A stretch of 64,000 nucleotides of DNA from Streptomyces sp. NRRL F-525 (GTDB lineage Bacteria > Actinomycetota > Actinomycetes > Streptomycetales > Streptomycetaceae): positions 1 to 64,000 of the forward strand of contig NZ_JNXE01000007.1 of NCBI RefSeq assembly GCF_000716605.1. The letters run 5' to 3'. Of this stretch, positions 1 to 29,682 are shown one piece after another. The position numbers and the translations under genes were made by a program. Each line of letters starts with the position of its first letter. Position 1 is the stretch's first letter. Below the pieces are notes generated by a model. That model had not been told where the DNA came from. It was given only the letters and a program-made list of their open reading frames with translations, and made no database searches.

Positions 1-2592
1 ACGTTGGCGATCGCCTCGTCCGAGGAGCGGCAGGACGGTGCTGCCCTCGCCGCGATGATCGACTTCAACGGCGTCGACAGCGCGAGTGTGGTGCCGTCGC
101 TGCTGGGAGCCCTTGAGCCGAAGTCGGTTGCGGGGGTGGGGAATTGGGTGCTGGGCGCGGAGCGGTTGGAGGCTGGTCTCGCGACGAAGTGGCGTGCGGG
201 CGCCAGGGTTTGGAACACCTATGGCCCGACGGAGGCGACCGTAATCACTACAGCGGTTCTGCTGGACGAGGGCATAACGGGTGAGGATGCGCCGCCTGCG
301 ATCGGCCGCCCGCTGCCCAATATCCGTACGTACGTGTTGGATTCCTTCCTGCGGCCTGTTCCGGTGGGCGTGGCGGGGGAGTTGTACATCGCGGGAGACG
401 GTCTGGCCCGTGGCTACATCGGCCGCTCCGACCTGACAGCGGAGCGGTTCGTGGCGTGCCCGTTCGGTGACGGCACGGGGCGGATGTATCGCACCGGCGA
501 CTTGGCACGCTGGACTTCGGACGGGCAGCTGGAGTTCGTGGGGCGTGCCGATGCGCAGGTGAAGATCCGGGGGTTCCGGGTCGAACTCGGCGAGGTTGAG
601 GCGGTGTTGGCCGCTCACGCGCAGGTGCAGCGGGTCGCGGTGCTGGCGCGAGAAGGTCGGCTGATCGGATACGTCGTCGGTGATGCGGACGGCGAGGCGC
701 TGCGGGCCTTCGCCGCCACCCGCCTCCCGGAGTACATGGTCCCGTCGGCGGTCGTCGTACTCGACGCGTTCCCGCTCACAGTCAACGGCAAGATCGACCG
801 CTCGGCCTTGCCGACACCGGAAGCCGCGGTGAGTGCCGGTCGGGCTCCGGAGACTCCTGCCGAGAAGGTGTTCTGCGCCCTGTTCGCTGAGGTGTTGGGG
901 CTGGAGGAGGTCGGGGTCGGGGACGGGTTCTTCGAGTTGGGCGGCGATTCGATCATGTCGATGCAACTCGCGTCCCGGGCCCGTGCCGCAGGGTGGACCG
1001 TTTCGCCGCGGCAGGTGTTCGAGGAGAAGACGCCGGAACGGTTGGCGCTGGTGGCGGTCGCGGTGTCCGGCGGGGCGGCGGGGCAGAAGTCGGACACGGG
1101 TGTCGGGGAGGTGCCGTGGACCCCGGCGATGCGATCGATGGGTGCGCACGCGCTGCGGGGCGAGTTCGCGCAGTGGACGGTGATCGGTGCGCCGGCCGGG
1201 CTCGGTGTCGACGTACTGGCGTCAGGTGTGGGCGCGTTGCTGCGGGCGCACGGGATGCTCCGGGCCCGGACCGGGAGCGACCTTCGGACGCTGACGGTTC
1301 CGGAGGCGGCTGGGATCGACGCGTCCGGGCTGGTGGTCCGGGTGGATGCCGTAGGCCTCGCCGAGGATGAGGTGGACCGGGTGGCGGTCGAGGCCGCTCG
1401 GCCCGCGGTCGGGCGGTTGGATCCGGCGGCCGGGGTGATGCTGCAGGTGGTGTGGGTGGATGCCGGGCCCGAGCGGGTCGGTCGGATTGTGCTGGCCGCT
1501 CATCACCTGGCGGTCGACGGGGTGTCGTGGCGCGTTCTGGCGCAGGATCTGGGAACCGCGTGCGAGGCGGCGGCCGTTGGCCGACGACCGGTCCTCGAAC
1601 CGGCGCCGACCTCCTTCCGCACCTGGGCACGGGAGTTGGAGCGGTCGGCGGAAACACCGCAGCGGGTCGGGGAGTTGGCGAACTGGGTCGAACTGGTGCG
1701 AACCGCCGGTGAGCCGCTGATCGGCCGTCGCGCGCTGGACCCGGCCGTCGACACGGTTGCGTCGTTGCGACGTTCTTCGTGGTCGGTTCCGGTGGGTGAG
1801 GCTGCGGTGCTCGTCGGTGAGGTGCCGGGCGTGTTCCACTGCGGGCTGCACGAGGTGCTGTTGGCGACGCTGGCCGGTGCGGTGGCGGGGTGGCGGCCGG
1901 GCTTCGGGGCTGAGCCGGGTGGGTTCCTGGTGGAGGTCGAGGGGCACGGCCGTGAGCCGTTGTCGGAGGGGATGGATCTGTCGCGGACGGTGGGCTGGTT
2001 CACCGCGGCCTATCCGGTACGGCTGGACGCCTCAGGTGTGGATCTGGCGGAGGCTACGGCCGGTGGTGCGGCGGCCGGTGCGCTGGTCAAACGGGTGAAG
2101 GAGCAGGTGCAGGCGGTGCCCGGGGACGGGCTCGGATATGGCCTGTTGCGTCATCTGAACCCGGAGACCGCGTCGGTGTTGGAGGGTCTGCCGGTGCCGC
2201 AGATCGGGTTCAACTACCTGGGCCGGTTCGCGACCGCCGGTGGTGCCGGGGCGAGGTCGGCCGAGCCGTGGCAGTCGGCCGGGGACACCGCCGTCGGTGG
2301 TGCCGCCGATCCGGGCATGCCGGTGCCGCACGCGCTCGACGTGGGCGCCGTGGTGGCGGACACCGTGAACGGGCCCGAGTTGACGCTCACCCTGAGCTGG
2401 CCCGAGGCGCTGCTGGACGAGGCCGACGTACAGGAGCTGGGGCTGGCCTGGCTCGGGCTGCTGAACGGTCTCGCCGCGCACACCGCCGACCCGTCGGCCG
2501 GTGGGCACACCCCCTCCGACTTCTCCCTCCTCGATCTCGACCAGGACGAAGTCGACGATCTGGAGGCCGAGTTCGCCGACGACCAGCTCTGA
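1..2592 (+). CDS. NRPS subunit, 3' part: adenylation (partial)-PCP-epimerization
   Basis: This is the C-terminal 863 residues of an NRPS subunit; the gene begins left of the window, inside the A domain just after the FDAAVLD (A4) region. The A domain retains [35 protein letters not shown] and NGKIDR (ending near nt 810). A PCP follows with GGDS (Ser codon at 949). An epimerization domain runs from about 1090 to 2440 with HHLAVDG (1501), EGHGRE (1939) and [12 protein letters not shown] (from about 1987), so it looks active and should give a D-residue. The acidic tail after 2510 ([14 protein letters not shown]) resembles a donor COM docking segment that would pair with the N-terminus of the next subunit, 144 bp downstream. 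The visible specificity residues (S278, V299, G301, T322, V330, I331, K517 in GrsA numbering, by hand) equal those of both later A domains. Substrate not assigned. Confidence 0.95.
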
Positions 2593-8700: not shown

Positions 8701-11700
8701 CATGCCGCGCTGCCCGTCCCGGAGTTGGACGACGGCGCCTCGGGTCTCCGGGCCCGGACCGAGACGGAGGCGCTGCTCTGTGCGCTGTTCGCCGAGGTGC
8801 TGGGCATCGACCGGGTGGCCGCCGACGGCAACTTCTTCGACCTGGGCGGCAACTCCGCGCTGGCGATGCATCTCGCGGGCCGGATCCGGTCGGAGGCCGG
8901 CGTCGACCTGGACATGAAGCAGTTCTTCAGCATGCCGACGCCGATCGGCGCGGCGCGCATCCTGGCCCTCAAGGAACGGCCCCCGGTGGTCGCGGTCGAG
9001 CACGAGGGCGGTGTGGCGCCGGCGACGGCCGGGCAGCGGCTCGACTGGCGGCGCGCCGCGGCCAACCCCCGGACGCGGGCCCTGCAGTCGTCCGTCGCCC
9101 TGCGCCTGCGCGGAGAACTCGACCGCGAGGCCCTGCGGGCGGCGCTGGCGGACGTGGCGGCACGGCACGACATCCTGCGGACGGTCTTCGCCGAGACCCC
9201 GGACGGCGGACTGGTCCAGCGGATCCTGGACGCCGACGACCCCGCCGCCGTTCCCGCCCTGCCGCTCGTCGCGGTGACCGAGGAGGAGCTTCCCGCCGTC
9301 CTCGACGACCACGCCGACCGACGGTTCGACCTCGGCAGCGAAACGCCTTGGGCGTCAACCCTGTTCGCGCTCTCCGACACCGACCATGTCCTCCTGCTCG
9401 TCCTCCATCGGATCGGTGCCGACGACGTGTCCAGGGACGCTCTCGTACGCGATGTCGCCGTGGCGTACGGCGCACGCCGCGAGGGCCGTGCCACCGAACG
9501 CGCGCCCCTGCCGCTGCAGTTCGCGGACTACGCGGTGTGGCAGAACAGGCAGCTCATGGAGACGGAGGGGGAGGCGGGCGCGAAGGAGGGCGGGGCCGGC
9601 GACCAGATCGCGTACTGGAAGGAGATGCTGGCGGACGCGCCGACCGCCACCGTCCTCCCCACGGACCGGCCGCGGCCCGCACGGCCCAACCACCGGGCCC
9701 GCTCGGTGCCGCTGCGCGTCCCGGCCGCGACGCACGGCCGCCTGATGGACGTGGCCCGGCCGCTCGGGGCGACCTCGGCGGCCGTCGTCCACGCGGGTCT
9801 CGCGATGCTCCTCGCCCGGATGGGCGCGGGCACCGATCTGACGGTCGGTGCCGTGACGCAGCGACCGGCCGCCGGCGGTGAACTCGAGGCCGCCATGGGC
9901 CCGTTCGCCGGGTTGCTGCCGCTGCGCACCGACGTCTCGGGCGACCCGACGTTCCGGGAACTGCTCGGCCGTGTGTGGGAGACCGCGGGGGAGGCCGACG
10001 TACGCGGGGACGTCCCGTTCGCGCGCATCGCCGAGATCCTGGGCGTCGCGGGTGAGGCGCCCGGGGATCCGCATCCGCTCTTCCAGACCGTCCTGGACGT
10101 ACGGGAGGACACCGCCGAGAAGTGGGACGTCCCGGCGTTCCCGGGGCTGAACGCCTCGACGGTCGACCTCGGCGCCCCGGCGTCCGGGTTCGATCTGTCG
10201 CTCCGGCTGACCGACCGCTACCGGGACGACGGCGGACCGGGCGGCCTCGACGGCACGCTGGACTACGCCGAGGAACTGTTCGACCGGGCCACCGCGGCCC
10301 GTCTCGCGAAGCGGCTCGTCCATGTCCTCCAGCAGGTGGCGGTCGATCCCGAACTGACCCTGAGCCGGATCGACATCCTGCTCGGCACGGCGGAGTTCCG
10401 GCGGCTGACCGAGGAGTGGAACCTCGGCGCGGCCCGGGTCCCGGACGGCACCGTCCTCCCGGCCTTCGCCGAGTCCGCGGCCCGTGACCCGCGAGCCGTG
10501 GCCGTCCGCGACCGGGACGGTCACCTCACCCGGCGCTCCCTGGACCGGGCGGCGGGTTGGCTCGCCGCGCGGCTGGACCGGCTCGGGGCCGGTGCGGGCG
10601 GTGTCGTCGTGGTGGCGGCCCGGCCCGGTACCGGCTGGGTGGTCGCCGTGCTCGGGGTGCTCAGGTCCGGTGCGGCGTGCCTGATCGCGGACCCGGACGA
10701 TCCCGCGGGCCCGCTGGCGGCGGCCGCCGCGCTGGGCTGCGAATGCCCGGCCGCGTTCGTCCGGTCCGGCGACACCGCCGTACCGGGGGCGGGAACGGTG
10801 CCGGTGCTGCGGGTGGAGGACGCGATCCGGGCCGGGAACAGCCGGCTGCGCCGCACCGCCGCGGTCCGGGAGCCGTCGCCGTCCCAGCCGGCGGTGGTAC
10901 TCCCCGTGGAGGCACCGGACGGCACTCTTGTGGGCGAGATGCTGGACCACCGGTCCCTGCTCGGCCGGGTGATCGACCGTCAGGCCGCGTCCCCTGCGGC
11001 GGGACCGGCCGACGGCGCGGTCCGTGTGGACGCGGGCGCGCCCGTCGCCGAGCTGCTCGTCGGGGTACTGGCCGCGCTGCGCGGGGACGGCACGGTCGAC
11101 GTCGTACCCACGGCGGAGCGGCCGGGACGCGAGACCGCGCGGGCCGTCGTCCCGCTGCCCCGCACCGCGCGCGCCTACGTCCTCGACGCCTGGCTCCGGC
11201 CGGTCCCGGCCGGGGTCGCAGGCGACCTGTACGTGGCGGGCCCGTCCCTGGCCCGCGCCTACGCCGGCGCGCCGGCCCGTACCGCGGGCAGTTTCGTACC
11301 CGACCCCTTCGGACCCGGTGGCGACCTGATGCTGCGCACCGGCCGGCGCGCCGCGTGGACCTCCGACGGACTGGTGGAGCCGCGCGCCGCGGACGACGGC
11401 GGCGCCGACCTGTCGGCACCCCGGCGCGCCGGACGCCGACGCGACGACCTCGACGTACTGCTGGCGCTACGGCCCGGGAACTCCCGCCCGCCGCTGTTCT
11501 GCCTGCACCACAGCACGGGCCTGGCCTGGTGCTACTCCGGCATCCTCCAGCACCTTCCCGAGGACCTTCCGGTCTACGGCCTCCAGACACCCGCCTTCGC
11601 CGGCCGCGGGGCGATGCCGGACAGCATGGACGCGATGGTGGCCGGACACGTCGAACGCATCCGCGCGGTGCAGCCCGAGGGGCCGTACCAGCTGCTCGGC

Positions 11701-12225
11701 TGGTCCTTCGGCGCGGTGCTCGCCCAGGCCGTCGCCACCGCGCTGGAGGAACAGGGTCAACGGGTCTCGCTGCTGGCGCTGCTGGACGGCTTCCCGGGCG
11801 GACACCGGGAGGCGGAGACCACGCACGCGGAGGACGGCGACGGGGTGGACCGCGAGGGACGCGTCGTGCTCAGCGGCCCGGAGGTTGGGGCGCCGCTGGC
11901 CGACGCCTTCACCCGCGACATGGAGAGGACCAAGCAGCACATGATCGGGCTGGAACGGCGGCACACACCCCGGCGCTTCGGCGGTGACGCGCTGCTGTTC
12001 CTGGCCACCGAGGGCGGTCTGGCCCAGATGTCCCTCGACGAGAAGCGCACGACCTGGGCGCGGTACATCGCCGGCCGCGTCGACAGCGTCGAGGTCCCCG
12101 CCGACCACATAGGGCTGCTGTGGGCCGAGAGCGCCGGGGTCATCGGGCGCGCGGTCACGGAACGGCTCGTACAGCAGCGGTTCACGTCGGACACGTTGGA
12201 CACATCGGACACGTCAGAGAGGTAG
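2737..12225 (+). CDS. Terminal NRPS subunit C-A-PCP-C-A-PCP-X-(relic A)-TE, GPA-like
   Basis: A 3162-residue terminal subunit. Order by residue: C1 (about 10-450, HHIVLDG at 146); A (467-935, [10 protein letters not shown] present); PCP (GGDS, Ser981); C2 (1037-1480, HHIASDG at 1169); A (1511-1990); PCP (GGNS, Ser2040); X domain (2095-2550, HRIGADD at 2224); a decayed A domain (2559-2900); thioesterase (2917-3140, GWSFG with Ser2990, Asp in LLDGFP, His in PADHIG). The start ATG follows GAGGAG, and the N-terminus [13 protein letters not shown] resembles a COM acceptor. Both intact A domains read DALSVGTVIK by hand; G301, T322 and K517 also occur in the Dpg code as I recall it (DPYHGGTLCK), but the rest differs, so I do not assign a substrate. 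The two modules plus X-TE correspond to GPA modules 6 and 7, here on one protein. The last 13 residues repeat SDT/LDT. The P450 starts 8 bp downstream. Confidence 0.96.
9019..10386 (+). other. X domain (P450-recruitment condensation-like domain)
   Basis: A C-domain-like segment after the last PCP. The catalytic HHxxxDG is replaced by HRIGADD (His codon at 9406), the HRxxxDD form that I recall for the GPA X domain, which does not condense but recruits Oxy P450s to the PCP-bound peptide. The rest of the C fold is recognisable ([48 protein letters not shown]). Its position before the TE is as in the GPA terminal module. What is unusual is the A-like remnant that follows it. Confidence 0.85.
10411..11484 (+). 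pseudogene. Relic adenylation domain fused in frame between X and TE
   Basis: About 350 residues that still follow the A-domain plan but have lost its catalytic motifs. It opens with the usual EEWN linker and a [16 protein letters not shown] start. The P-loop [10 protein letters not shown] is replaced by [20 protein letters not shown] is gone, and YRTGDL has become LRTGRRAAW. What remains recognisable is [30 protein letters not shown] (11221) and FVPDPFG. No A10 lysine motif and no PCP follow before the TE. It is translated as part of the subunit and cannot plausibly adenylate. I read it as the relic of an extra C-A-PCP module whose C domain is now the X domain. Confidence 0.8.
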
Positions 12226-12232
12226 AACGCGC

Positions 12233-13399
12233 ATGACGCAGTCGTTCGAGCTACAGGTCGACAAGCGCCGGAGCCTGCTGGACCCGGTGCCGGAACTCCT
12301 GGAGATCAGCGCGCGGGCGCCGCTGTCCAAGGCGCCCGGGGGAATGCCCGGCTGGATCGCGACCGGCCGTGAGGTGGTGCGGCAGATCCTCGGTGACTCC
12401 GAGCGGTTCTCCAACGTGCCGCCGCCGGAGCCCGGCGGCCGCAAACTCGACCAGCACGAGGGCAGCCTGCTGCACATCGACCCGCCGGAGCACAGCCGGC
12501 TGCGGCGGCTGGTGGCGCCGCTGTTCACGGTGCGGCAGATGCGGCGGCTGGAGCCGATGATGGAGCGGATCGTCGCGGACCACCTGGACGTGCTGGAGCG
12601 GGCGGGTCAACCGGCCGACCTGATGCGGCACTTCGCCCGGCCCGTGTCCGGCCTGGTCCTCGCCGAGATACTCGGGCTGCCCCGCGACGACCTGCCCGAG
12701 CTGTCCCGGCTGAGCGACTACCGGGCCGCCGGGCACAGCGCCCGCCGGAAGCCGGCGGCGACGGCGTACTTCAGGCACTTCGAGCAACTGGTAGCCGAGC
12801 AGCGCCGTAACCCGGGCGAGGGTCTGGTCGGCTCGCTGATCCGGGAGCACGGGGACGGGGTGACGGACGAGGAGCTGGCCGGACTCTGCGAGGGCATCGC
12901 CAACGGCTCGATCGAGAACACCGCGGAGGCCATCGCCCTGGGCACCCTGGCCCTGCTGCTCCATCCCGAGCAGCTGGCCCTGTTGCGGGAACGGCCCGAG
13001 CTGATGGACCGGGCCGTGGAGGAACTGCTGCGCTACGTCTCGGTGGTGGCCGTCGTCTCGCCGCGCACGGCGCTGGTGGACGTGGCGATCGCCGGCGAGG
13101 TGATCAAGGCCGGTGAGGTGGTGTCGTGTTCGGTGCTCGCCGCGAACCGCTGCCCGCACGGCGGCGGTGTCGCGGACGGGCTGGACATCGCGCGGGAGGA
13201 GTCCGCCAACCACCTGGCCCTGGGCCACGGCAACCACTTCTGCCTGGGCGCGGGGCTGGCGCGTGTGCAGATGCGGATCGCCTTCGCCGGGCTGCTGGAG
13301 CGGTTCCCCGGCCTGCGGCTGGGCGCCGGGGTGGAGGAGCTGCGGTTCCGGCTGCTGGCCCCGCAGTTCGGCATCGAGACGCTTCCGGTCGCCTGGTGA
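12233..13399 (+). CDS. Cytochrome P450, probable peptide cross-linking (Oxy-like)
   Basis: A 388-residue soluble P450. EELLRY carries the ExxR motif, and GHGNHFCLGAGLAR is the haem-thiolate loop (Cys in FCLG). The I-helix reads NGSIENTAEA. Residues 150-153 are PRDD, which I recall as conserved in GPA Oxy enzymes and part of their contact with the X domain; the second P450 in this window (47521) has VPQED there. It starts 8 bp after the terminal NRPS gene with an AGAGAGG ribosome site and overlaps the ferredoxin gene by 4 bp. Phenolic or aryl coupling on the PCP-bound peptide is inferred from context; beta-hydroxylation of a carrier-bound residue is the main alternative. It is the only P450 in the cluster part of the window, whereas typical GPAs have two to four. 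Confidence 0.9.
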   Translation: MTQSFELQVDKRRSLLDPVPELLEISARAPLSKAPGGMPGWIATGREVVRQILGDSERFSNVPPPEPGGRKLDQHEGSLLHIDPPEHSRLRRLVAPLFTVRQMRRLEPMMERIVADHLDVLERAGQPADLMRHFARPVSGLVLAEILGLPRDDLPELSRLSDYRAAGHSARRKPAATAYFRHFEQLVAEQRRNPGEGLVGSLIREHGDGVTDEELAGLCEGIANGSIENTAEAIALGTLALLLHPEQLALLRERPELMDRAVEELLRYVSVVAVVSPRTALVDVAIAGEVIKAGEVVSCSVLAANRCPHGGGVADGLDIAREESANHLALGHGNHFCLGAGLARVQMRIAFAGLLERFPGLRLGAGVEELRFRLLAPQFGIETLPVAW

Positions 13400-17910: not shown

Positions 17911-18135
17911 ATGGCGAACCCGTTCGACGACGAAAACGGGACCTTTCTGGTGCTCGTGAACAGGGAGAATCAACACTCGTTGTGGCCTGCGTTCGCGGAG
18001 ATTCCGAATGGCTGGCGACTCGCTTTCGGGGAGGCCACGCGCAAGGAATGCCTCGCCTATGTGGAGGAGAACTGGACGGACCTCCGTCCGCAGAGCCTCA
18101 TCGACGCGATGAGGAAGACCGAGGCGGCCCACTGA
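17911..18135 (+). CDS. mbtH: MbtH-like NRPS accessory protein
   Basis: A 74-residue MbtH protein with the family hallmarks [32 protein letters not shown] and the C-terminal [11 protein letters not shown]. MbtH proteins bind A domains and are often needed for their solubility and activity, so its partners here are probably the A domains of the upstream NRPS. ATG 17911 is preferred because family members begin with (M)xNPFDD and GGGGGCG lies upstream; a GTG at 17899 would add four residues. It is followed by the ABC exporter after 40 bp. Confidence 0.96.
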
Positions 18136-26156: not shown

Positions 26157-28427
26157 ATGGCCGGACGGAGCCTCGACGACTATGCGCGACTGGCCCGGAA
26201 AGAATTCGATCACCTTCTGGCGGAATCCCTGGAAGCCGTTGAACGGGCCTCCGAGGCGAACAGGGCGGCCTTCGACCTGACCGGTCTGCGGCCGGCCCGT
26301 TCCACCCGGCCCGGGCCGCCCGACACCACCACCAAGATCCTGGACCGCCCCTGGGCCGCGCCGATCGCCGTCGGCCCGCTCGCCGGACTCGCCCGGCCCG
26401 CGGACGAGCCCGCCGTGCTGCGGGCGGCCGACGCGGCGGGACTCCCCGTGGTGGTCGACATGGTCACCCCGGACGACCTCGCGCACCCGGTGCCGGCCGG
26501 CGACGGGCCGCGGTGGCTCCGCACGTACGGCCAACGGGAGCCCGGTGACATCGAGCGGTCGGTGGCCGACGCGGAGCGCGCCGGGTTCGCCGCGCTGCTT
26601 CTCTCTCTGGGGTCCCCGGGACTCTCTTTGGGGTCCCAGGGACGCGGCCGAATCGCGCGCCCCGATGCTCCCCACGCGGACTGGTCCGACGTGGAGCGGC
26701 TGCGCGCCACGTCCACGCTGCCGCTGCTCGTCGCGGGCGTTCGCACCGCCGCCGATGCCTCCCGCGCGTTCGACGCCGGGGCCGACGGCATCGTCACCGA
26801 CGCGCTGGACGCGCTGCCCGACCTCGCCGCGGTCGCGGGCACGCACCGGCCCGTCCTGCTCGGCGGCGGCATCCGCCGGGGCGCCGACATCCTGCTCTCC
26901 CTGGCCGCGGGGGCCGACGCGGTCCTCGTGGGACGGCTGGTGCTGGAGGGGCTGATCGTCGACGGGGAGGCAGGCGTCACCGAGGTGCTGGGCGCTCTCG
27001 TGCGCGAGCTGGAGGAGGCGATGACGTTCACCGGAACCGCCTCGATCGCCGAGACCCGCGCCGACAGCCTCCGTACCGGACACCGTCCACCGCCCCGCGT
27101 ACACCCGACGGACACCCCTGTCGGTGCCGTCGGAACCCTGCGCAAGGACGACCTCCACCCCAGCCTCTCCGACCCCGTCCTGGACACGATGACCTTTCTG
27201 AACGAGGTCACCCACCGCTACCCGGACGCCGTGTCCTTCGCGCCCGGGCGGCCCTACGACGGGTTCTTCGACACCGAGCAGATCTTCACGTACCTCCGCC
27301 GCTACCTGGACCATCTGGCCGCGCAGGGGCACACCGAGCAGGACATCCGCACCGCGATGTACCAGTACGGGCCCACCGCCGGCCAGATCCGTGGGATCGT
27401 CGCCGACTCGCTGCGCGCGGACGAGGGCATCGACGTCCCGGCGGAGTCGATCGTCATCACCGTCGGCGCGCAGGAGGCCATGCTCCTGGTGGTGCGGGCC
27501 CTCACCGCAGGCCCCGACGACGTGCTCCTCGCGGCGAGCCCCTGCTACGTCGGCATCACCGGCGTGGCCCGCCTGCTGGGCGTGCCGGTGACGGCCGTGG
27601 AGGAGCGGGAGGACGGGTTCTCCTGCGCCGATCTGGAGGCCGCGATCGTGCGGGAGCGCGCCCGGGGACGGCGGCCGCGGGCCCTCTACGTGATTCCCGA
27701 CCACTCCAACCCGTCGGGCACCACGATGGACGCGCCGACGCGTGCCGCGCTGCTGGAGACGGCGGAGCGCCACGGCATCCTCCTCATCGAGGACAGCCCG
27801 TACCGCAGGGTGAGCCCCGGGACGCCGTTGCCCACGCTCAAGTCCATGGACCGTTCGCGGAGCGTCGTCCACCTGGGCTCGTTCGCCAAGACGGTCTTCC
27901 CCGGCGCCCGGGTCGGCTTCGCGGTCGCCGACCAGCAGGTGGTCGACGCGTCGGGCCGGACCGGTCTCCTGGCCGACGAGCTTGCCAAGATCAAGAGCAT
28001 GGTGACGGTCAACACCTCGTCCCTGAGCCAGGCCGCGGTGGCGGGCGCCCTGCTGGCGGGCGAGGGCCGGATCTCCGAGATGAACGCGGAGCCGGCGGCC
28101 TATTACGGCAACGCCATGCGGACCACGCTGCGCAATCTCGACGCCCGTCTCCCGGCGGCCCGGCGCGCCGCTCTGGGCGTGCGCTGGAACGAACCGACGG
28201 GAGGTTTCTTCCTCACGGTCCAGGTCCCCTTCCGGGCGGACAACGCGGCGCTGACCCGGTCGGCACAGGAATTCGGCGTGATCTGGACCCCGATGAACTA
28301 CTTCTATCCGCAGGGCGGCGGCCATCAGGCCCTCCGTCTCTCCACCAGCTATCTGACGACGGCCGATATCGAAGAGGGCACCGCGCGGCTCGCGCGGTTC
28401 ATCGAGGCGCAGTCCTCGGCGTCGTGA
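26157..28427 (+). CDS. hpgT: Fusion of degenerate hydroxymandelate oxidase-like domain and HpgT-type aminotransferase
   Basis: 756 residues. Residues 1-310 follow the FMN alpha-hydroxyacid oxidase fold (4-hydroxymandelate oxidase, Hmo, in Hpg synthesis). They keep the phosphate-binding GGGIRRGAD (236-244) and VLVGR but lack the catalytic set: the Lys of the usual VLKGI strand is absent (LPLLVAG, 188-194), SNHGGRQLD is replaced by TDALDALPD (214-222), and the Asp loop is a seven-residue tandem duplication LSLGSPG/LSLGSQG. Residues about 330-756 are a fold-I PLP aminotransferase with GPTAGQIRGI, DHSNPSGT and Lys578 in SFAKT, matching HpgT, which makes both Hpg and Dpg from the arylglyoxylates. 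The transaminase half looks intact, so its likely job here is Dpg formation with the dpg genes downstream. ATG 26157 has GGGAGG upstream. Confidence 0.9.
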   Translation: MAGRSLDDYARLARKEFDHLLAESLEAVERASEANRAAFDLTGLRPARSTRPGPPDTTTKILDRPWAAPIAVGPLAGLARPADEPAVLRAADAAGLPVVVDMVTPDDLAHPVPAGDGPRWLRTYGQREPGDIERSVADAERAGFAALLLSLGSPGLSLGSQGRGRIARPDAPHADWSDVERLRATSTLPLLVAGVRTAADASRAFDAGADGIVTDALDALPDLAAVAGTHRPVLLGGGIRRGADILLSLAAGADAVLVGRLVLEGLIVDGEAGVTEVLGALVRELEEAMTFTGTASIAETRADSLRTGHRPPPRVHPTDTPVGAVGTLRKDDLHPSLSDPVLDTMTFLNEVTHRYPDAVSFAPGRPYDGFFDTEQIFTYLRRYLDHLAAQGHTEQDIRTAMYQYGPTAGQIRGIVADSLRADEGIDVPAESIVITVGAQEAMLLVVRALTAGPDDVLLAASPCYVGITGVARLLGVPVTAVEEREDGFSCADLEAAIVRERARGRRPRALYVIPDHSNPSGTTMDAPTRAALLETAERHGILLIEDSPYRRVSPGTPLPTLKSMDRSRSVVHLGSFAKTVFPGARVGFAVADQQVVDASGRTGLLADELAKIKSMVTVNTSSLSQAAVAGALLAGEGRISEMNAEPAAYYGNAMRTTLRNLDARLPAARRAALGVRWNEPTGGFFLTVQVPFRADNAALTRSAQEFGVIWTPMNYFYPQGGGHQALRLSTSYLTTADIEEGTARLARFIEAQSSAS

Positions 28428-28497: not shown

Positions 28498-29682
28498 GTG
28501 GGGGTGGACTTTTCGATGACCATCAATCTGGACCTGCCGGAAGGACTGGAGGCCGACGTCCTGGCGGACGATTTCCCGCGGCCCGTCGTCCTGACCGGTG
28601 ACGGCGCCCTGAAGACGCAGTACCGGCCGCGGATCGTCGGGGTGGGGACCGCCACGTCGGCCGCCGTCTACTCCCAGCAGGAGGTGCTCGACGCCTTCCG
28701 TATCACCGACCCGAAGATCCAGTCGGTCTTCGCCAACAGTGCCATCGACCGGCGCCACCTGACCCTCCCGGAACCGGACGCCGACGGTGTCCGCGCCCCC
28801 GAGCCGCAGGGCGACCTCCTCGACAAGCACAAGGCCATGGCGACGGAGATGGGCGCCGAGGCACTGCGCGCCTGCCTGAAGCGGGCCGGCGCCGAACTCT
28901 CCGATCTGCGCCACCTGTGCTGCGTGTCCTCCACCGGCTTCCTCACCCCCGGCCTGAGCGCCCTGATGATCCGCGAACTGGGCATCGACCGGCACTGCAG
29001 TCGCAGCGACATCGTCGGCATGGGCTGCAACGCGGGGCTCAACGCGCTGAACGTCGTGGCCGGCTGGTCCGCCGCCCACCCGGGCGAACTCGCCGTCGTC
29101 CTCTGCACGGAGGCCTGCTCAGCGGCGTACGCGATGGACTCCTCGATGCGGACCGCGGTCGTCAACAGCCTCTTCGGAGACGGCGCGGGAGCGATCGCCC
29201 TGAGGTCCGGCCCCGGCGACGAGGCGTCCGGCGCGGCCGAGGGCCCGACCCTCCTGAAGTTCGCCAGCTGCATCATCCCCGACGCGATCGGCGCGATGCG
29301 CTACGACTGGGACCGCGACCTGGACCGCTTCAGCTTCTACCTCGACCCCCAGATCCCCTACGTCGTCGGTGCCCACGCCGAGATCGTGGTCGACCGCCTG
29401 CTCCAGGACACGGGCCTGCGCAGGAGCGACATCCGCCACTGGCTCGTGCACTCCGGCGGCAAGAAGGTGATCGACGCGGTGGTCGTCAACCTCGGCCTGA
29501 CCCGCCACGACCTGCGCCACACCGTCGGCGTCCTGCGGGACTACGGCAACGTGTCGAGCGGATCGTTCCTTTTCTCGTACGAACGCCTCCTCGACGAGCA
29601 GGTGACCCGGCCCGGCGACTACGGAGTGCTCATGACCATGGGCCCGGGGTCCACGCTCGAGACGGCGCTGGTCCAGTGGTGA
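28498..29682 (+). CDS. dpgA: DpgA, type III polyketide synthase (3,5-dihydroxyphenylacetyl-CoA synthase)
   Basis: A 394-residue chalcone-synthase-fold enzyme. Cys177 lies in GMGCNAGLNALN, with later active-site features in DPQIPYVVGAHAEIVVD, WLVHSGGKK and GNVSSGSFLF. DpgA condenses four malonyl-CoA to 3,5-dihydroxyphenylacetyl-CoA, assisted by DpgB and DpgD. The GTG start gives MGVDFSMT, which matches the N-terminus I recall for GPA DpgA proteins; ATG 28516 is the alternative. It leads the classic dpgA-B-C-D order and sits 70 bp after the HpgT fusion gene. Confidence 0.97.
   Translation: MGVDFSMTINLDLPEGLEADVLADDFPRPVVLTGDGALKTQYRPRIVGVGTATSAAVYSQQEVLDAFRITDPKIQSVFANSAIDRRHLTLPEPDADGVRAPEPQGDLLDKHKAMATEMGAEALRACLKRAGAELSDLRHLCCVSSTGFLTPGLSALMIRELGIDRHCSRSDIVGMGCNAGLNALNVVAGWSAAHPGELAVVLCTEACSAAYAMDSSMRTAVVNSLFGDGAGAIALRSGPGDEASGAAEGPTLLKFASCIIPDAIGAMRYDWDRDLDRFSFYLDPQIPYVVGAHAEIVVDRLLQDTGLRRSDIRHWLVHSGGKKVIDAVVVNLGLTRHDLRHTVGVLRDYGNVSSGSFLFSYERLLDEQVTRPGDYGVLMTMGPGSTLETALVQW

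Follow-up and report, generated by a model that had tools for sequence, protein, structure and literature searches.

A probable relic of an extra NRPS module between the X domain and the thioesterase of GPA synthetases

What lies between the X domain and the thioesterase (TE) of a GPA synthetase? The question is raised by Streptomyces sp. NRRL F-525, in which the first 64,000 nucleotides of contig NZ_JNXE01000007.1 (the window) encode a terminal NRPS subunit, belonging to the synthesis of a vancomycin-related antibiotic, with a long segment at this place (Table 1). The original prediction read the segment as about 350 residues of dead adenylation (A) domain, and this is borne out. In the subunit, Pfam marks Condensation in three stretches, AMP-binding in four, PP-binding in two and Thioesterase in one; AMP-binding matches the segment itself in two stretches (72.4 bits, E 4.1e-20). 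A profile search of the segment against A-domain models, proposed with the prediction, returned clear A-domain similarity: an A-domain HMM of 497 columns, built from 120 intact A domains, aligns the linker to columns 2-223 and 324-395, with no match to columns 224-323. As predicted, the translation keeps both LDAWLRPVP and GDLYVAG and has lost the P-loop (A3) and YGPTE (A5); the ribose-binding Asp and A8-A10 are missing as well, and LRTGR stands at the place of YRTGD. Neither Pfam nor the HMM found a PCP, a P-loop, YGPTE or an A-sub with the A10 Lys between X and TE of this subunit. Judged on its translation, the segment is a relic and not a functional NRPS A domain, A similarity being retained and the catalytic motifs gone. 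Structure modelling predicts an A-core fold for it, positions 11161-11430 match PDB chain 6eby_B at 2.3e-17, and the same arrangement recurs in rows P0003-P0012. The best structures matched by the predicted X-relic-TE model are C-A and C-A-PCP-TE (pTM only 0.35, so we claim no packing).

Table 1. Features of the window that bear on the terminal NRPS subunit
Feature	Coordinates	Strand	Remarks
Preceding NRPS subunit, C-terminal part only (G000:C7:1)	1..2592	+	
Terminal NRPS subunit, 3162 aa	2737..12225	+	Single ORF without in-frame stops; C-A-PCP-C-A-PCP-X-(dead A core)-TE
X domain (C-type, HHxxxDG motif missing)	9019..10407	+	phmmer to 4tx2 and 6m7l; X HMM 715 bits
A-core relic between X and TE	10408..11484	+	Residues 2559-2916 (from 10411) of the 3162-aa ORF
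A2-like stretch, [16 protein letters not shown]	10648..10695	+	Counterpart exists in relatives
Place of the lost A3 P-loop, [22 protein letters not shown]	10894..10959	+	
Best-conserved relic block, A6 to A7 region	11164..11379	+	Identity 0.92, dN/dS 0.08 vs L069
Thioesterase domain	11485..12201	+	Pfam Thioesterase 4.5e-31; GWSFG at 11698-11712
Cytochrome P450 with motif PRDD	12233..13399	+	Pfam p450 1.1e-20; GLPRDDL in translation
MbtH-like protein gene	17911..18132	+	PF03621 98.9 bits; phmmer to MbtH-like chains, including one common to 6ea3 and 6eby

By sequence comparison, the third C-type domain of the subunit is a genuine X domain. With phmmer it matches the solved X domains 4tx2 (teicoplanin X, 3.3e-110) and 6m7l (1e-101), and HHxxxDG is replaced by HRIGADD at 9406-9426, the HRxxxDD form. 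The gene adjoining downstream encodes the PRDD-bearing P450; PRDD is given as the mark of P450s recruited by X domains in the available part of a 2022 review (PMC8949500). DpgA and DpgC are encoded in the window too, at 28498 and 30343. One ORF of the window, 26157-28427, carries an FMN-dependent dehydrogenase and an aminotransferase in a single frame, as if two steps that we take to belong to late hydroxyphenylglycine supply had been fused. The preceding NRPS subunit is incomplete because the window starts at base 1 of contig 7 of the assembly. Variants of the X motif occur elsewhere: the X-type domain at residues 1044-1498 of P0218 (607 bits) has HHIAADA, with the second His retained, and the X subgroup of L048/L002, L049, P0047 and P0048 has HPIAADE in place of the HR motif.

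To place the window among X-domain synthetases, we took X-type domains from two protein searches (the best 120 of 1728 and the best 120 of 926 matches), from one scan of named genomes and from the window. Of the 65 loci of the scan, 29 were used, and one further translated locus duplicates L048. From the 130 rows that passed as X, four without a TE in frame (P0013, L054, L068 and L072) were set aside, giving 126 X-to-TE linkers, 122 of them distinct. P0213, which scored just above the X threshold, was not counted as X, because its domain is of the ordinary C type (HHIAGDG) and an intact A domain goes with it. In Streptomyces sp. GKU 895 (L072:11678-12740) and Streptomyces sp. F001 (L054 after 12001) the X frame stops within the linker; relic motifs, and in L072 TE motifs too, continue in other frames, through either a sequencing error or a real pseudogene. 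Plasmid records yielded partial matches only.

Among the matches listed, 55 distinct linkers are long (at least 340 aa), one has 183 aa, 61 have 104-130 aa and five, of 35-69 aa, are without an A match; these counts come from best-match lists and are not frequencies in nature. Among linkers without a match, P0088, P0177 and P0178 keep, by eye, a few residues resembling the relic end. Streptomyces varsoviensis has two X-domain NRPS loci (L062 and L074) that fall in different X clades, with linkers of 49 and 69 aa and no A match. Against the A-domain HMM, 2520 shuffled linkers reached at most 8.3 bits, and all short and all long relics score at least 35.9 and 85.1 bits, respectively. A negative control taken from the region that separates X from the last working A domain was dropped; its stretches scored up to 60.4 bits, apparently because they hold the true end of that A domain. 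The belief that X is directly followed by the TE in known GPA synthetases, on which the original prediction had built, does not hold for most of them: 117 of the 122 distinct linkers carry some relic.

A comparison with known clusters, also proposed with the prediction, gave a mixed answer: the relic is short in the subunit of the teicoplanin producer, long in that of corbomycin and absent from the kistamicin type. The short form is found in A. teichomyceticus (P0139), A. balhimycina (P0158), A. orientalis (P0159), N. gerenzanensis (P0153) and S. toyocaensis (L067); in the first three a 119-aa linker aligns to A columns 327/328-398. These teicoplanin/vancomycin-kind subunits (P0139 and 57 other short rows) share with the window the order of X, A relic to the same hinge column and TE, but have about 72 A columns left in a linker of 111-120 aa, whereas the window relic is long. 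The corbomycin subunit (L058) comes from Streptomyces sp. WAC 01529, which the available part of PMC7567792 identifies as the strain that makes corbomycin. It has a long relic and the same joint as the window, but the relic is fuller, with a 446-aa linker covering columns 1-400, the window being without columns 224-323. In 297 genomes of one other family at least five matches scored like X domains, and three, all outside the 122, were read further. L184 has the short form (40.8 bits). The kistamicin-type L182 and L183 likewise have X and TE, but the two matches lie 51 and 44 aa apart, with no A match in between. Against 6m7l, the L182 X domain scores 975 bits. The title of that entry is a complex of OxyA with an X-domain from GPA biosynthesis, which we infer from the available part of PMC6565677 to be the kistamicin complex; the motif HRxxxDE given there also fits the L182 X domain. 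Pfam AMP-binding left the short form unmarked in all four linkers tested (L067, L073, P0139 and P0158). With the short block of L067, phmmer does find A domains in PDB (8.9e-10).

The idea of a dead module is itself already known, because it was published for complestatin in 2007: the available part of Rausch et al. describes adenylation remnants after X* and draws the same extra-module conclusion (PMC1894796). As in the window, X of the complestatin NRPS is followed by an A domain, there with large insertions and deletions; compared by that description, the two differ in that the remnant is reported, in the text available, for that cluster only, whereas here it forms a graded series. The short form has apparently been published as well, as a 120-aa extension for which the 2022 review cites Peschke 2018 (PMC8949500, available part). 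In the open-access literature searched, we found no statement of a common joint, of a graded long-short-none series on the tree, of repeated trimming or of purifying selection, and these are what the present analysis adds.

The relics share one joint. All 121 detected relics (117 distinct) stop at A-HMM columns 394-402, just before A8, at the hinge between A-core and A-sub, and the TE match starts 21-38 aa beyond the relic end. Full relics start at A column 1-3 directly after X and extend to the A-core end. None of the 126 linkers (122 distinct) of these X-type NRPSs has an A-sub or a PCP remaining after X. Of the YRTGD motif, the Tyr survives in none of the 59 long rows and in none of the 58 canonical short ones, and the Asp survives in 2 and 0 of them, respectively, compared with 120 of 120 intact A domains; four of the 59 long rows are duplicates. 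Outside the tabulated rows, L101 also has an Asp at this position.

The 103 X representatives form one clade with support 1.0 (FastTree, 213 C domains); in the C-domain tree rooted on a C domain of a GPA synthetase, the group next to X consists of 75 ordinary C domains. Long relics stand on both sides of the first X split in two IQ-TREE trees (54 and 57 X domains), one side being supported at 90 and 93 and the other weakly, at 65 and 41. Separate from the canonical clade (100) are the short P0047/P0048 (100, sister to L048/L049), the short L101 (100, with P0225) and the middle-sized L064 (99); the kistamicin-type X branches as the sister group of the canonical clade (98). There are at least five separate relic losses among the sampled linkers, and the kistamicin-type lineage in addition. 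On these trees the long relic looks ancestral within the X clade and would later have been trimmed or lost repeatedly. The fewest steps are needed if A-sub and PCP were lost once, earlier than the ancestor shared by all sampled X domains, and trimming then occurred repeatedly. The 16 full relics tested also form one clade; in a tree with 170 of 293 representative A domains, some 1.8 substitutions per site separate it from the closest intact A domain, a very long branch that points to no particular source A domain.

Is the relic decaying freely? Its dN/dS (Nei-Gojobori) lies at 0.32-0.65 in 11 of 11 pairs, with 0.38 for the window against L069, and exceeds that of X in 9 of the 11; 13 pairs had been set up, two of them without a relic value, and the pairs share members and hence are not independent. 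In neutral simulations of the L058 linker (446 aa; four GC settings, two distances, 320 replicates) the medians were 0.96-1.48 and the lowest value was 0.67; they are based on this linker only, and wider scatter would be expected for the short L067/L073 linker (117 codons). Pooled over up to 12 pairs, dN/dS is 0.52 for columns 1-223, 0.50 for 224-322, 0.32 for 323-402 and 0.60 for insertions; the aligner set the N-lobe of the window as insertions in this alignment, and for the window only the A6-A7 block is quoted (Table 1). The window relic is 90-96% identical to those of P0003, P0005, P0006, P0008, P0009 and P0010, the adjoining active C and A domains being 91-98% identical; for P0011 the values are 84% and 89-91%. 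These ratios point to selection that is relaxed yet not absent. Third-position GC of the relic is 0.90-0.92, as in X and TE; second-position GC is 0.60-0.66, against 0.50-0.52 in X and TE. The relics of P0011, P0015 and L065 contain low-complexity, repeat-like insertions.

We consider it likely that the segment is the inherited dead A core of an extra C-A-PCP module whose C domain became X, and that what remains works as a structural spacer or platform. The observed basis of this reading is A homology, the predicted fold, the common joint, the loss of the YRTGD Tyr in all tabulated rows and of the Asp in nearly all, X monophyly, repeated shortening and in-frame purifying selection. The extra module would originally have followed the last working module, ahead of the TE, and its C domain would have turned into X, the P450-recruiting domain. 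The loss of A-sub and PCP would be explained most simply by a single event, older than the last ancestor common to the sampled X domains, that also fused the A core with the TE. Catalytic motifs would have disappeared from the A core too, and the relic itself should catalyse nothing. X and the A core may still pack like an ordinary C-A pair, the A6-A7 block may form an N-terminal extension of the TE, and the spacer would let the last carrier protein reach the X-bound P450s and then the TE. The original prediction's derivation of X from the C domain of a lost C-A-PCP module thus finds support in X monophyly and the common joint, though as a novelty it was anticipated in 2007 (PMC1894796, available part); its term 'fossil', read as free decay, is disfavoured by dN/dS. 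It had also held that the same segment in all GPA terminal modules would speak against it. Most of those sampled do share the relic, which is absent from 5 of 122 distinct linkers and the kistamicin type, and such sharing argues for common descent.

The relic has probably been retained to serve as a structural spacer that separates X from the TE. It is not essential: those five linkers and both kistamicin-type ones do without it. That the relic is functionless and simply being lost strikes us as unlikely. The at least five losses and the kistamicin-type lineage would fit such a course, as would internal deletions, low-complexity insertions (e.g. P0011, P0015 and L065) and a dN/dS above that of X in 9 of 11 pairs. 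Truncations of Tcp12 affecting the minimal TE, the extended TE or the whole linker-TE were all expressible, with A-domain activity about that of wild type, and the protein without the whole linker-TE region was purified as well (PMC6333238, available part). We infer that the 'extended' part of the Tcp12 TE is the short relic; the short form is then not needed for folding of the rest, and crosslinking and release lie outside that result. Yet none of the 11 pairs reaches a dN/dS of 1, all of them fall under every one of the 320 neutral simulations of the L058 linker, the A6-A7 block has a pooled dN/dS of only 0.32, and the identity of the window relic to six close relatives comes near that of active C and A domains (the seventh, P0011, being at 84% against 89-91%). 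More specific is the proposal, which we regard as conceivable though doubtful, of a pseudo-adenylation domain with a job, in which relic and X would form a C-A-like platform and the A6-A7 block a TE extension that sets crosslinking before release. On this proposal, canonical GPAs, P0047/P0048, L101 and L064 would have kept nearly the same 70-odd columns because the block does the work. Such parallel retention is weakened as a strong argument for function: from a long relic, four lineages retained the block (L064 slightly more than that), while hardly any of it is left in L062, L074 and P0088, and it is gone from the kistamicin-type lineage too.

Could the A6-A7 block instead have been retained because it binds an MbtH-like protein that makes the synthetase more stable at its end? 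Its match in PDB is 6eby_B, which has 77 aa and bears the name 'Amino acid adenylation', and 6eby also holds an MbtH-like chain; the Ala and Arg of ObiF1 that contact MbtH (PMC6668435 and PMC7593251, available parts) lie within the matched range; long rows keep the Ala in 47 and the Arg in 53 of 59 cases, and the window has an MbtH gene. The coincidence of the short block with this chain and the contact region suggests a fragment able to stand alone. However, canonical short rows keep the Ala in only 15 of 58 cases and have Pro there in 38, many with a deletion just before, and the Arg is kept in 30 of 58; the window likewise carries Pro instead of the Ala and retains the Arg. MbtH binding by most short forms is unlikely, and with the contact Ala so often replaced we do not prefer MbtH docking as the main reason for retention, which we hold to be rather improbable. 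Later domain shuffling could also have inserted an A relic from outside X's own module, a history for which the very long branch and unplaceable source of the relics leave room. It appears quite improbable: full relics start at A column 1-3 right after X and reach the A-core end, the 16 tested form one clade as X does, and the listing of the 25 closest intact A domains includes no member of an X-bearing synthetase. We give hardly any credence to an assembly or frame artefact. Frames are broken in this part of two relatives (L054 and L072) and second-position GC is raised, but third-position GC is as in X and TE, the arrangement is identical in P0003-P0012, and dN/dS in frame is below 1.

An inherited A core, dead as an enzyme and probably kept as a spacer, turns a single published remark on complestatin into a testable graded series, in which a module would have been dismantled and its C domain given the new task of recruiting P450s. 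Should the dead A core prove to be structural, those who cut or swap X-TE regions should treat the linker as a domain and not as filler.
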